This document shows, one piece after another, positions 4,302 through 9,249 of a stretch of 64,000 bases of DNA. Position 1 is the stretch's first letter; each line of letters opens with the position of its first letter. This DNA comes from Halorarum halophilum. Its GTDB lineage: Archaea; Halobacteriota; Halobacteria; Halobacteriales; Haloferacaceae. The notes beneath the pieces were generated by a model. It ran no database searches, was not told the origin of the DNA, and saw only the letters and a list, made by a program, of their open reading frames with translations. The DNA lies in assembly GCF_013401515.1 (NCBI RefSeq), contig NZ_CP058529.1, positions 1,178,001-1,242,000 of the forward strand. The letters run 5' to 3'. The translations under genes were made by a program, and so were the position numbers.

Positions 4302-5339
4302 TCAGTCGGTGGTCGAGTTCATCTGCTCCCGTGCAAACTGGTCGAGGGCGACCTTCGTTCCGCCGAGGACGACCGGGCCGACGAACAGGCCGATCGCCCC
4401 GAACAGGACGATTCCTCCGAAGATCCCCACGACGATGGTCGCTACGTTGAGCGCTCCGCTCCGGTTGATGATCGCCGGGCGGAGGTAGAGGTCCGATGCG
4501 CTGACCACCGACCCGTAGACGACAAGGAGGGCCGCTGCGAGGGGGCGACCGATCGCGAGCAGGTAGCCCGAAACCGGAAGCCAGACACCGAACGCCCCAA
4601 CGAGCGGGAGCAGCGTGAGGATGAACGTCGCCACGGTCAAGAACACGACCCCCGGCATGCCAACGAGCGCCAATCCGATGCCGAGCAGTACCGCCTGGAC
4701 CCCCGCGACAGCGACGTTCCCGATGACGGACGCCCACATGAGGGTGTCGAGTTCACCGAGCAGTTCCCGCTGGACACGATCGGAGACGGGGACGACCGAT
4801 CGCAGCCACGTGACGAACTGGTCACCGTCCCGCAACAACGCGAAGAGTACGAAGACCGTCACGGTGAGCCCGATCAGCACGCCAGGGAGACCTCCGATGA
4901 CGGTTACTGCGCCGGTCGCGAGACGCTGCAACCCAGTGGCGATCGGCTCCTGATACGTCGCGTACAACAGCTCGAAGTCGATCACGTAGCCGATGGTTTC
5001 GAACTGTTCCTGAATCGTGTCGGGACTGAGGTTCCCCTCCTGGATGGCGGTCAGGAGCCCGAGTCCCTGCTGAATTGCGACCGCGAGGACGTATGCAACC
5101 GGGATGAAAAGCAAGAATACCGAGAGCGAGATGAGGGTGAGGGCAGCCGTATCCGAGCGCATCCGACGCTCGAGTCTCCGCTGTGCGGGAGCGAGAACGT
5201 ATGCGAGGACGATCGCGAGCAGGACGTACTGAAGCTGTGTGAGAACGAGGAGCGCGGCGAGAACGCTGCTTACCGCCGCCAAGATCGACAATCCGGCATT
5301 GTCCGAAAGTCTACGTCGACGATCACCCTGTTCAGTCAT
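4302..5339 (-). CDS. AI-2E family transporter (membrane permease)
   Basis: 345 aa integral membrane protein with seven to eight predicted helices: a pair near residues 18-50, one near 65-90, then, after a soluble segment (TAIQEGNLSPDTIQEQFETI), further helices from ~145 to 325. The family pattern is clear: GLPGVLIGLTVTVFVLFALLRDG in the middle and GALNVATIVVGIFGGIVLFG near the end. The AI-2E transporter family (TqsA/YdiK/PerM) includes putative autoinducer exporters and Na+/H+ antiporters; haloarchaeal members have no proven substrate. The start ATG at 5339 gives the usual length. Confidence 0.88.
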   Translation of the reverse strand: MTEQGDRRRRLSDNAGLSILAAVSSVLAALLVLTQLQYVLLAIVLAYVLAPAQRRLERRMRSDTAALTLISLSVFLLFIPVAYVLAVAIQQGLGLLTAIQEGNLSPDTIQEQFETIGYVIDFELLYATYQEPIATGLQRLATGAVTVIGGLPGVLIGLTVTVFVLFALLRDGDQFVTWLRSVVPVSDRVQRELLGELDTLMWASVIGNVAVAGVQAVLLGIGLALVGMPGVVFLTVATFILTLLPLVGAFGVWLPVSGYLLAIGRPLAAALLVVYGSVVSASDLYLRPAIINRSGALNVATIVVGIFGGIVLFGAIGLFVGPVVLGGTKVALDQFAREQMNSTTD

Positions 5340-6134: not shown

Positions 6135-6911
6135 TCAGTCGTCTACGTCGTCATCCGAGGTGTGCTGCTCGCCGCCGTCAGCGCGGGGTGAGCCCTGTGG
6201 TGCGGGCGATGCCGAGGATGCGCGGCCGGCCCAGTTCGGGAGGTTCTCCTCGACGTAGGTGTGTCCGCCCCACCCGAAGGCGAGTCCGGCGCCGAGGGCG
6301 ATCGCAGCGGCCAGTCCCCATGCTGCCGCGTTAGCGAACACGAACAGGATACTGACGTCGATGCCCATCGTGTCGAGTCCGATCACGACCGCGGTGAAGT
6401 AGAGGAACAGGCGAGTCCCCGTTGCGAACCACGACGTGTACGCCGTCTGGGTGGCAGCTCGGGTCCGCGTGATCGCGTCACCGATGAAGTCGGCGACGAC
6501 GAACCCGAGGACGATCACCAGAAGCCCGGCAACGAACGCCGGGAGATAGGAGACGGCCGTCCCGATCCACTCCGAGAGCAGCGGAATCGCGAGCACGTTC
6601 GCCGCAGCGAGGATCGCGATGGCGTAGACGAACCACTTCGCGAGCCCCCCGAACGCGTTCGCGACGGCAGTTTCCGACCCGCCGAGGAGGCTTCCGAGCG
6701 GCGTCTCCGTGACCATTCGGTCGAGTTCGACGCGATCGGCCACCGCTCGGACCACCTTCGCGACGGCGACACCGACGACCCAGCCGATCAGGAGGATGAC
6801 GAGTGCCCCCAGCAGTCGGGGAGCGAACGCAACTATCCCCGCGATCGTCTCCTCGAGGAACCCCGGCACGGATACCTGGAGTACGTGACCCTGTAGCGTT
6901 GCTGTAAACAT
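6135..6911 (-). CDS. MscS-like / CmpX-type membrane channel protein
   Basis: 258 aa. The start at the ATG at 6911 (MFTATLQGH) is chosen because the longer frame to 7121 adds ~70 residues of non-membrane, non-conserved sequence. Four hydrophobic segments follow the repeated 'TM_helix' pattern seen in CmpX and other mechanosensitive-channel relatives: PRLLGALVILLIGWVVGVAV, WFVYAIAILAAANVLAIPLL, AFVAGLLVIVLGFVVADFIG and a long glycine/alanine-rich pair ending at GLAFGWGGHTYVEENLP. The MscS beta-domain is absent. The C-terminus is a short acidic tail. Probable role: osmotic or membrane-stress response. A long regulatory-looking gap separates it from the divergent acidic repeat protein. Confidence 0.8.
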   Translation of the reverse strand: MFTATLQGHVLQVSVPGFLEETIAGIVAFAPRLLGALVILLIGWVVGVAVAKVVRAVADRVELDRMVTETPLGSLLGGSETAVANAFGGLAKWFVYAIAILAAANVLAIPLLSEWIGTAVSYLPAFVAGLLVIVLGFVVADFIGDAITRTRAATQTAYTSWFATGTRLFLYFTAVVIGLDTMGIDVSILFVFANAAAWGLAAAIALGAGLAFGWGGHTYVEENLPNWAGRASSASPAPQGSPRADGGEQHTSDDDVDD

Positions 6912-7340
6912 CACACAGAGGGATTCGTCGCCGACGGGGTTAGTTAGAAAGTACCGAGAGTTCAGTAACCCAATCTTGTTACTGGACGTCGTATCGCCGA
7001 CTACAGCCGATCGAGGTGAGACGTTTCGCCTTTTCGCATCGAATATAGCAGCGATCCCACGGAGTCGGAACGAGGCCAAGGAGGTACTCCCGGGCAGCGC
7101 CGAGTTTATTTCGCCTGTCATGGTGACTGGCAGTAACTCTCCCGTACCGGCGCAGCGTCTAAACTATCACTTGCTGATCGAACCCCGAAGGAATTGGTAA
7201 TCTATCATCTTCCGGTGGGACCGACCATTGCGATACGTACTGTGACCTTCCGGGTGACAATCAGCGAATTGACCAGTAACGGGATTGCAAATCTTAACTG
7301 ACAGTTATGCCCCCGCCAGACGTTGGAATACGTGGAAAAT
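6912..7340. promoter_or_regulatory. Divergent intergenic region with repeated CAGTAAC sites
   Basis: 429 bp between two divergent genes. The heptamer CAGTAAC occurs at 6963-6969, 7131-7137 and 7274-7280, and its complement GTTACTG at 6978-6984. The first and last of these form a perfect 7-bp inverted repeat with an 8-bp loop. Four sites in ~320 bp is far above chance for a heptamer. The two outer sites lie ~60 bp upstream of each gene's start, which suits operator positions. No gene is seen. Confidence 0.5.
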
Positions 7341-8669
7341 ATGACCGCAGAAGACACCGAGGAACGAAAATTGACGATGGATCGTGAAACGATCAGGGAA
7401 TGGGCCGAGATGTACGACGCGACTCCCGTCCGTACAACCGAAACCGCAGACGCGGACGAAGCCGCGGTCCCTTACCAATTGCGCCCCGAGACCGAGCAAA
7501 CCGAGACGATGGAGTCGCTCCACTGGGACGAGTTCTTCCAGGATGTCGAGGAGTTCGGGCTCGTAATCGTCTTCCACGACGAGAGCGCCGACCGGCTGTT
7601 CGAGGTTGTTGGCCGCGACCAAGTACTGGCCCACGAACCCGTGGAGACCACCGAGCTCGATGAGCGTCTGCTGGCAGGGGAGACGATCACGAGCGAGTTC
7701 ACCGAGACGACCGTCATCGATCGGACGATCGTCGAGCGTGCAACGGTTCAGAGCGGGATCGTCGATACCGAGGAGCTCGATAGCCGTGTCGTCGATGTCA
7801 AACTGCTCTCCAGGGAGATCGTCGGCTCCCACGTGCTCGATCGGGACCTGCTCGACGAAGTTGACCAGTCCCGGTTCGAGGATATGAGCCGGCTCGAAGG
7901 CGGGTTTCGGGAGGAACTCCCCCGGCCGATCGGCGTCGAGGTCGAAGTCGAGGAGGACTGGTCGGTCACTCGCGAGGTGCTCGAGCGCGTGACCATCGAG
8001 AGCAGGATCGTCGACGTGGACGTCACCGAGACCGACGAGGTGGAATCCGAGACCCTCGAGAGTTCGATCGAAATCGATGGCCTCCAGCGTTCACTTCTGG
8101 AAAGCGATCTCATCGAGACGGAGGCCGACGCCGAGGAGGTCGTCGAGAGTGAATCCATCGAAAGCGAGTTCCACAGCGACGACGTCGTCCGAACACAGCT
8201 CATCCAGCGGCGGACCGTGGAGGACGACGTTACCGAGCGAAAAGTGATCCGGGGCGAACTCGACGAGAGCGAGGTCGTTCAGATCGAGATCAACGCGAGC
8301 AACCCCACTGAGACGGCGTTCGTCGATAGCGAAGACCTGGAGACAGAGGCAGCCCCCGTTGGTGTGACGGAGTACGAGACCGAGGCCACCGAGGCTGAGC
8401 AGGCCGAGGCCGAACGGAGCGAGGACGGGCGGACAGGACTCACAGAGGACGACGAAGGGAAGCCAGTCGTGGACGCTGGAGGCGAAGCGGTGGGTATGGT
8501 CGAAGAGGTGAGCGGGAGTACGGCATACATCGACCCCGAACCAGGACTCGTCGACCGAATCAAGACGACGCTGGGCTGGGGTGACGCCGACGAGGGGAAC
8601 TATCCCATCGAGGACGAGAACATCGACCGAGTCACCGACGACGAAGTCCGGTTGTCAGTCGGTAAGTAA
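7341..8669 (+). CDS. Repetitive acidic protein with C-terminal PRC-barrel-like domain
   Basis: About 442 aa from the ATG at 7341 (a TTG at 7323 extends the frame but is less likely). Residues ~55-90 form a small globular start (WDEFFQDVEEFGLVIVFHD). From ~110 to 340 the chain is built of a short reiterated pattern: hydrophobic pairs alternating with acidic or small residues, as in TVIDRTIVERATVQSGIVD, LDSRVVDVKLLSREIVGSHV and VTIESRIVDVDVTE. This is suggestive of a beta-solenoid or long beta-rich fold. A low-complexity Glu/Ala linker follows. The C-terminal ~75 residues (GKPVVDAGGEAVGMVEEV, then DRIKTTLGWGDADE) look like a haloarchaeal PRC-barrel domain. There is no signal peptide. The flanking UspA and MscS-like genes suggest a stress role (inference). 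Confidence 0.75.
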   Translation: MTAEDTEERKLTMDRETIREWAEMYDATPVRTTETADADEAAVPYQLRPETEQTETMESLHWDEFFQDVEEFGLVIVFHDESADRLFEVVGRDQVLAHEPVETTELDERLLAGETITSEFTETTVIDRTIVERATVQSGIVDTEELDSRVVDVKLLSREIVGSHVLDRDLLDEVDQSRFEDMSRLEGGFREELPRPIGVEVEVEEDWSVTREVLERVTIESRIVDVDVTETDEVESETLESSIEIDGLQRSLLESDLIETEADAEEVVESESIESEFHSDDVVRTQLIQRRTVEDDVTERKVIRGELDESEVVQIEINASNPTETAFVDSEDLETEAAPVGVTEYETEATEAEQAEAERSEDGRTGLTEDDEGKPVVDAGGEAVGMVEEVSGSTAYIDPEPGLVDRIKTTLGWGDADEGNYPIEDENIDRVTDDEVRLSVGK

Positions 8670-8838: not shown

Positions 8839-9249
8839 TCAAACGGGGACTAACATGACGGGGATGGCGTGTGTTTCGAGAACCGTTTCCGTCATACTGG
8901 AGTGCATGAGGTCGTCGAGGAAGTCGTGTTCACGGTCACCCATGACGACGAATTCGTAGTCTCGGTCGGAGTCCAGTATCGCGTCGGTGAGGAGTTTCTC
9001 TTCCGAGACGTTCGTCCGATCCGAGAACCCACCTCTCGTATCGATCTCCACTTCGAAGGTAAGGTCCGGAGCCGTTCGCCGGATCACCGTCTCGATCTCG
9101 TCGCGGATCTGCTGGACGGACTCCTCCTCCGACTCCTGAACGTGGTACACGAACAGGTCGTGGTCGCTCACTGCTGCTTGTTCAACGGCGAACTCCAGGA
9201 CGTTGCTCCGGTGCTCGGAACCCCCGAACGCGACGAAGATCGTTCCCAT
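8839..9249 (-). CDS. UspA family universal stress protein
   Basis: 136 aa, the usual length for a single Usp domain. The N-terminal strand and nucleotide-site region read MGTIFVAFGGSEHRSNVLEF, and the middle is a standard alpha/beta arrangement. The C-terminal ATP-binding region, normally G-2x-G-9x-G(S/T), is altered: FVVMGDREHDFLDDLMHSSMTETVLETHAIPVMLVP keeps the flanking strands but not a clean glycine motif. It may therefore be a non-ATP-binding Usp. It is monocistronic. Usp proteins are cytosolic and respond to starvation or stress. Confidence 0.85.
   Translation of the reverse strand: MGTIFVAFGGSEHRSNVLEFAVEQAAVSDHDLFVYHVQESEEESVQQIRDEIETVIRRTAPDLTFEVEIDTRGGFSDRTNVSEEKLLTDAILDSDRDYEFVVMGDREHDFLDDLMHSSMTETVLETHAIPVMLVPV

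Follow-up and report, generated by a model that had tools for sequence, protein, structure and literature searches.

A conserved haloarchaeal protein family with an acidic five-residue repeat and a divergent C-terminal PRC-barrel

Introduction

Several described protein systems share single features with the haloarchaeal protein analysed here. Bacterial proteins with a DUF2382 domain (YsnF/AvaK proteins) are often fused to a PRC-barrel and are associated with stress; they have the same layout of an acidic, β-rich repetitive part and a PRC-barrel, but our protein gives no profile match to them. Pentapeptide-repeat proteins (PF00805), such as HetL, have a five-residue unit in common with it. In their A(D/N)LXX pattern the inward-facing residues are two apart, whereas the repeat described below has adjacent hydrophobic residues, acids at positions 3 and 5, and predicted long strands in place of a short-faced helix. 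Long antiparallel strands like the predicted ones are also found in the G5-E module of SasG, a rod with little hydrophobic core, in BPI/LBP and in perforin-type sheets; this structural similarity is weak and generic (Z 4.8-5.8), there is no sequence relation, and those proteins are extracellular.

The archaeal PRC-barrel proteins MTH1859, A. fulgidus PRC1/PRC2 and CdpB1/CdpB2 are soluble and have the same fold as the C-terminus of our protein. Their solved entries comprise about 75-170 residues, whereas here the barrel is an appendage of a 442-residue protein with a putative rod and an additional N-terminal domain. CdpB1 and CdpB2 stabilise the haloarchaeal divisome via protein contacts (PMC12186497). 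Bacterial PRC-barrel proteins also respond to stress: induction is strong under heat shock in Mesorhizobium loti (PMC3989490) and under UV-B in Anabaena (PMC4338792). Given these archaeal and bacterial roles, both a scaffold and a stress function are possible for a protein of this kind.

Results

The gene lies in a stretch of 64,000 nucleotides from Halorarum halophilum (the window). Domain borders, repeat register, conservation, selection and gene neighbours were all determined computationally. The features discussed are the following, with positions in the window and the evidence for each:

7341-8669, plus strand: whole gene, 442 residues (homologues; dN/dS)
7362-7634, plus strand: N-terminal domain, residues 8-98, mixed α/β (pLDDT; standalone copies and other fusions)
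7677-8330, plus strand: pentad-repeat β domain, residues 113-330 (periodicity; two models; selection)
7836-7931, plus strand: variable segment, residues ~166-197, joining the first long strand to the second (alignments; strand borders in the model)
8331-8429, plus strand: acidic low-complexity linker, residues 331-363, predicted disordered
8430-8666, plus strand: C-terminal PRC-barrel, residues 364-442 (fold match; weak Pfam match)
6135-7121, minus strand: divergently transcribed MscS-like membrane protein (MS_channel_1st_1, Pfam E 9.8e-15)
8839-9249, minus strand: convergent universal stress protein (Usp, Pfam E 2.2e-10)

The reading frame extends from an ATG at 7341, equivalent to the Met used by homologues, to a TAA at 8667-8669. 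The encoded protein has 29% Asp and Glu, a pI of 4.05 and no cysteine, and hydropathy analysis revealed no transmembrane segment. A first-pass annotation of this DNA had correctly placed the gene between the Usp gene and the MscS-like gene and had recognised an acidic, repetitive protein ending in a PRC-barrel, but it missed the separate N-terminal domain and the wide haloarchaeal family. It had also placed multiple operator-like sites upstream. Within the 219 bp that precede the ATG, we see a single inverted repeat with 6-bp arms (TAACTgACAGTTA, 7295-7307), which is not above chance (1 observed vs 0.6 ± 1.0 in simple shuffles, p 0.36).

A single-sequence search of the species genome collection returned no relatives, and a query built from an alignment was then needed. 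This query identified full-length homologues at 41 loci, all of them haloarchaeal and including Natrarchaeobius, Natrinema, Natronorubrum, Haloterrigena, Halorussus, Halosimplex and Natrialba. The closest homologue, at locus L036 of Natrarchaeobius, is 64% identical by tblastn and 66% in the alignment; a paralogue in the same genome is 44% identical, and homologues in related genomes are 35-44% identical. Matches over the repeat are present in 80 of 292 sampled Halobacteria genomes, with many more matching in the PRC part only. When the repeat profile was used alone on a phylum-wide sample, 13 of 295 genomes matched, all from the same order. A member on a Halomarina plasmid (L142:11914-12993) consists of repeat and PRC-barrel without the N-terminal domain, and the PRC-barrel alone is found in many genomes. 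No relatives were seen in viral contigs, so a viral origin is not backed. The gene-wide dN/dS relative to L036 is ~0.12; in the repeat blocks it ranges from 0.03 to 0.35 over the pairs tested, values similar to those of the PRC part, and it is often higher in the linker. Such purifying selection on the repeats indicates a constrained protein rather than disordered filler. Family members are named 'hypothetical protein' in annotated records, and together they constitute a conserved, unnamed haloarchaeal protein family.

The N-terminal domain is predicted to be compact, with pLDDT values mostly between 80 and 93. Pfam and NCBIfam searches with this domain gave no convincing match, and its profile matched PDB sequences at chance level only. 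Matches to OXA β-lactamases (39-43 residues, E 0.017-0.38) were taken as chance. The domain is a mobile module that occurs standalone or in other fusions in haloarchaea and Alphaproteobacteria. One standalone haloarchaeal copy is a 109-residue frame (L138; N-domain profile match 4e-17) with 45-56% identity to small hypothetical proteins of Alphaproteobacteria (rhizobia, Tistrella), and at another locus (L139) the domain is fused to a Lamin Tail Domain. The ~90-residue 'hypothetical protein' of rhizobia, Tistrella and haloarchaea is homologous to our N-terminal domain and, unlike the 442-residue protein, stands alone without repeats or PRC-barrel. We also noted the domain within longer fusions at L137, L139 and L140. 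The bacterial plasmid loci are L141, L146 and L147; in two of three inspected plasmids, those of Tistrella and Aminobacter, the gene for the bacterial protein adjoins the NHEJ genes Ku and LigD.

The repeat unit at the family level is [VIL][VIL]-[DE]-[STR]-[DE] and spans residues ~113-330; the string TVIDRTIVERATVQSGIVD, quoted in the first-pass description as an example of alternating hydrophobic and acidic units, corresponds to residues 124-142. In the first block (residues 113-170), the distribution of Val, Ile, Leu, Phe and Met peaks at a period of 5.0 with a power of 16.2, a value reached in none of 400 permutations. A phase table of the same block shows two adjacent phases that are 75% and 91% hydrophobic, the remaining three being 0-8%. 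All 42 homologues have a first-block period between 4.8 and 5.2 (permutation p<0.01). The pattern runs on to residue ~330 with less regularity, and over the entire repeat the periodicity of the window protein alone is blurred by insertions. There is no tandem repeat at the DNA level in the gene, which suggests that the pentad units are old.

The earlier view that the protein is β-rich and fits no named repeat family holds after searches of Pfam, NCBIfam and PDB sequences. None of the 42 members matches the Pentapeptide repeat model (PF00805) at E values up to 10; the H. halophilum genome itself has no PF00805 match, and nine of 14 control genomes were positive. An A(D/N)LXX-type pattern was rejected on account of the adjacent spacing of the hydrophobic residues. 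Membership in DUF2382 (PF09557) was likewise rejected, as the same E limit of 10 again gave no match in any of the 42 members; none of 15 related genomes matched this model, and the controls Bacillus subtilis and Deinobacterium were positive. The family profile gave chance-level matches only against PDB sequences. Judged by sequence, then, the repeat appears to be a module without a named family in the Pfam and NCBIfam copies searched, carried on a multi-domain PRC-barrel protein.

The full-length AlphaFold model (pLDDT 70.8, pTM 0.38) predicts strands at residues 116-126, 128-165, 197-229, 273-308 (with a short break) and 311-328. The repeat region of the Natrinema gari homologue (L051) was modelled by itself as well (pTM 0.51). 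In both models four long strands, each of ~20-40 residues, are interspersed with helical insertions and follow the same order, the strand cores having pLDDT values of ~80-94; the two models were built on one alignment and are not independent. Residues ~166-197, which connect the first two long strands, carry large insertions in relatives, as expected for the tip of a hairpin. A coevolution test of strand pairing placed its top antidiagonal near the last predicted hairpin, a signal indistinguishable from noise with 26 effective sequences. Foldseek returned no match at E below 0.001 for either model, and the structural neighbours listed by Foldseek and VIA-align are generic (MACPF, gasdermin, BPI, affimer and NTF2-like sheets). 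A period of five in long strands would place hydrophobic residues on both faces, at odds with the two-residue alternation of a flat β-strand. From these models, the pentad domain is probably a stiff acidic β-rod.

The linker that follows the repeat contains 39% Asp and Glu and varies widely in length among relatives; in the full-length model, residues 325-361 have pLDDT values below 50. The C-terminal PRC-barrel is supported by its predicted fold and weakly by sequence. Searched alone, the domain scores 17.1 bits against Pfam PRC (PF05239), under the cut-off of 21.2, and the best match in the family has an E value of 0.0025; the PRC profile matched PDB sequences at chance level only. The model of residues 364-442 has a core pLDDT of ~89 and superimposes on MTH1859 (1pm3) with a Z of 6.9 for 57 residues at 2.0 Å. 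PRC-barrels fill the leading VIA-align rows (1pm3, Z 6.9; 8onw, Z 6.7; RimM 2f1l, Z 6.5), and PRC1/PRC2 and CdpB1/B2 are matched as well, the whole range of Z 5.5-6.9 being middling for 79 residues. Going by the predicted fold and the weak sequence match, we assign residues 364-442 as a divergent PRC-barrel. The same divergent barrel recurs (30-52% identity) in five more small proteins or frames on contigs C1 and C2 of the H. halophilum genome (L003-L007); the two tested are under the Pfam PRC cut-off.

Relatives of the MscS-like frame align only from residue ~55-90, which suggests that the frame is over-extended at its 5' end and probably starts near 6911; the divergent intergenic region would then be ~430 bp. 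The encoded protein matches the TM-helix model only and no full MscS channel model. Among 56 sampled genomes with both genes, the family gene adjoins an MscS-like gene in five, with gaps of 187-599 bp and in both orientations (three divergent, two convergent); the naive chance of this is ~2e-10 if genomes are treated as unrelated. The two genes are 14-22 kb apart in a further 12 genomes. An MscS-like gene also adjoins the family gene in Halosimplex salinum and H. carlsbadense (possibly the same genomes as our samples G154/G294), the repeat-PRC member on the Halomarina plasmid and, in genome G013, a PRC-only gene. For 24 of the 80 genomes in which the family occurs, the matches listed at E 1e-30 included none to an MscS-like protein. 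No such gene adjoins the paralogue at 777 kb, which lies, as judged by eye, between FAD-oxidoreductase-like and permease-like frames.

Other neighbours differ between clades. At the other loci examined, the family gene has no Usp homologue as a neighbour. At 25 Natrialbaceae-type loci (L038 to L076), the convergent neighbour encodes a 725-residue peroxidase-family protein (PF00141; probably a catalase-peroxidase), and in Halorussus a YlbF-like gene lies upstream. At L038 to L076, the PF00141 gene is followed by genes for an ATP-grasp/RimK-like and then a polysaccharide flippase-like protein. An AI-2E-family transporter is encoded just upstream of the family gene in L036 (4829-5571) and is 52% identical to the transporter encoded at window positions 4302-5339, indicating that the neighbourhood is partly common to the two loci.

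Discussion

The first-pass annotation had likened the periodicity to a solenoid. Such a fold could be a quadrilateral helix in which each pentad makes up one face, as in pentapeptide-repeat proteins. The exact five-residue period fits such a fold, and one family member weakly matches the pentapeptide protein HetL (NCBIfam E 0.021, far from confident). Against it, an acidic or polar residue stands two positions ahead of the core hydrophobic residue in our pentads, PF00805 is matched by none of the 42 members, and the models (pTM 0.38-0.51) show unbroken strands of 20-38 residues without short turns. The long strands in both models disfavour a solenoid, none was seen among the listed structural matches, and the solved structures that come closest are long twisted sheets of a generic kind. 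We therefore consider a β-solenoid unlikely and prefer the rod described above, while noting that this long-strand fold, like the PRC fold, is a prediction.

How might such a protein work? We tentatively favour, at somewhat less than an even chance, an elongated two-headed adaptor or scaffold, probably cytoplasmic, in which the repeat is the spacer. The N-terminal domain and the PRC-barrel would be two binding heads, and a few very long strands would form a narrow, acidic, rod-like sheet that holds them apart; the flexible acidic linker before the PRC-barrel may add to the spacing. The rod would thus set the distance between the partner of each head, one of which may be membrane-bound, for example the adjacent MscS-like protein. 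By analogy with archaeal PRC-barrel proteins, which act via protein contacts, such a spacer would be the likely mechanism. The modularity of the family also counts for an adaptor, given that the N-terminal domain occurs alone or in other fusions, repeat and PRC-barrel occur together, and the PRC-barrel occurs alone. The strict pentad period, the purifying selection on the repeats, the agreement of the two models on strand order, the PRC fold and the lack of a transmembrane segment count for it as well. Against it stand the low pTM values, the poor fit of a five-residue period to a flat β-strand, and the fact that a regular repeat can serve as something other than a spacer. A more specific proposal is that the protein is a soluble accessory which docks on the MscS-like channel through the PRC-barrel or the N-terminal domain, perhaps in an osmotic response. 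It draws on the adjacency of the two genes in either orientation in several genera, including Halosimplex and, for the member without the N-terminal domain, Halomarina, and on the PRC-only gene beside an MscS-like gene in G013. This putative link is our best functional lead. Yet adjacency is limited to five of 56 genomes, the paralogue and 24 of the 80 family genomes fit it poorly for the reasons given above, and the neighbour resembles MscS in its TM helices only, so that we regard an accessory role as improbable. Less probable still is a general stress-protection protein, acidic, hydrated and abundant like bacterial PRC-barrel stress proteins. The induction of PRC-barrel proteins in M. loti (PMC3989490) and Anabaena (PMC4338792) speaks for this, as do the Usp neighbour in the window and the peroxidase-family neighbour in the Natrialbaceae-type loci; but the Usp adjacency is not conserved, and the strong constraint on single repeat positions points to a defined structure over a generic hydrophilin. 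Of the 'stress or scaffold protein' first proposed, the scaffold half agrees with the domain layout, and the stress half stays a guess, as neighbours differ between clades.

Returning to the adaptor that we prefer, we infer its binding role, the function of the rod and any link to the membrane or to stress. A bolder version, which we consider rather unlikely as a whole, sees in the pentad domain a β architecture not described before: a sheet that is narrow, very long and highly acidic, with hydrophobic patches every five residues on both faces. It would act as a salt-stabilised ruler in the haloarchaeal cytoplasm, set between two adaptor domains of which one is linked to the MscS-like protein.

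If the MscS-like link is true, the family would supply archaeal membrane proteins of a poorly understood class with a soluble partner. The N-terminal domain is a second unnamed module, common to Alphaproteobacteria and at times located beside Ku/LigD. A strict five-residue repeat that is under selection in many haloarchaeal genera, is no recognised pentapeptide repeat and lacks an entry in the Pfam and NCBIfam copies searched would count as a novel building block of proteins and could serve to test how β structures gain their stability in molar salt.
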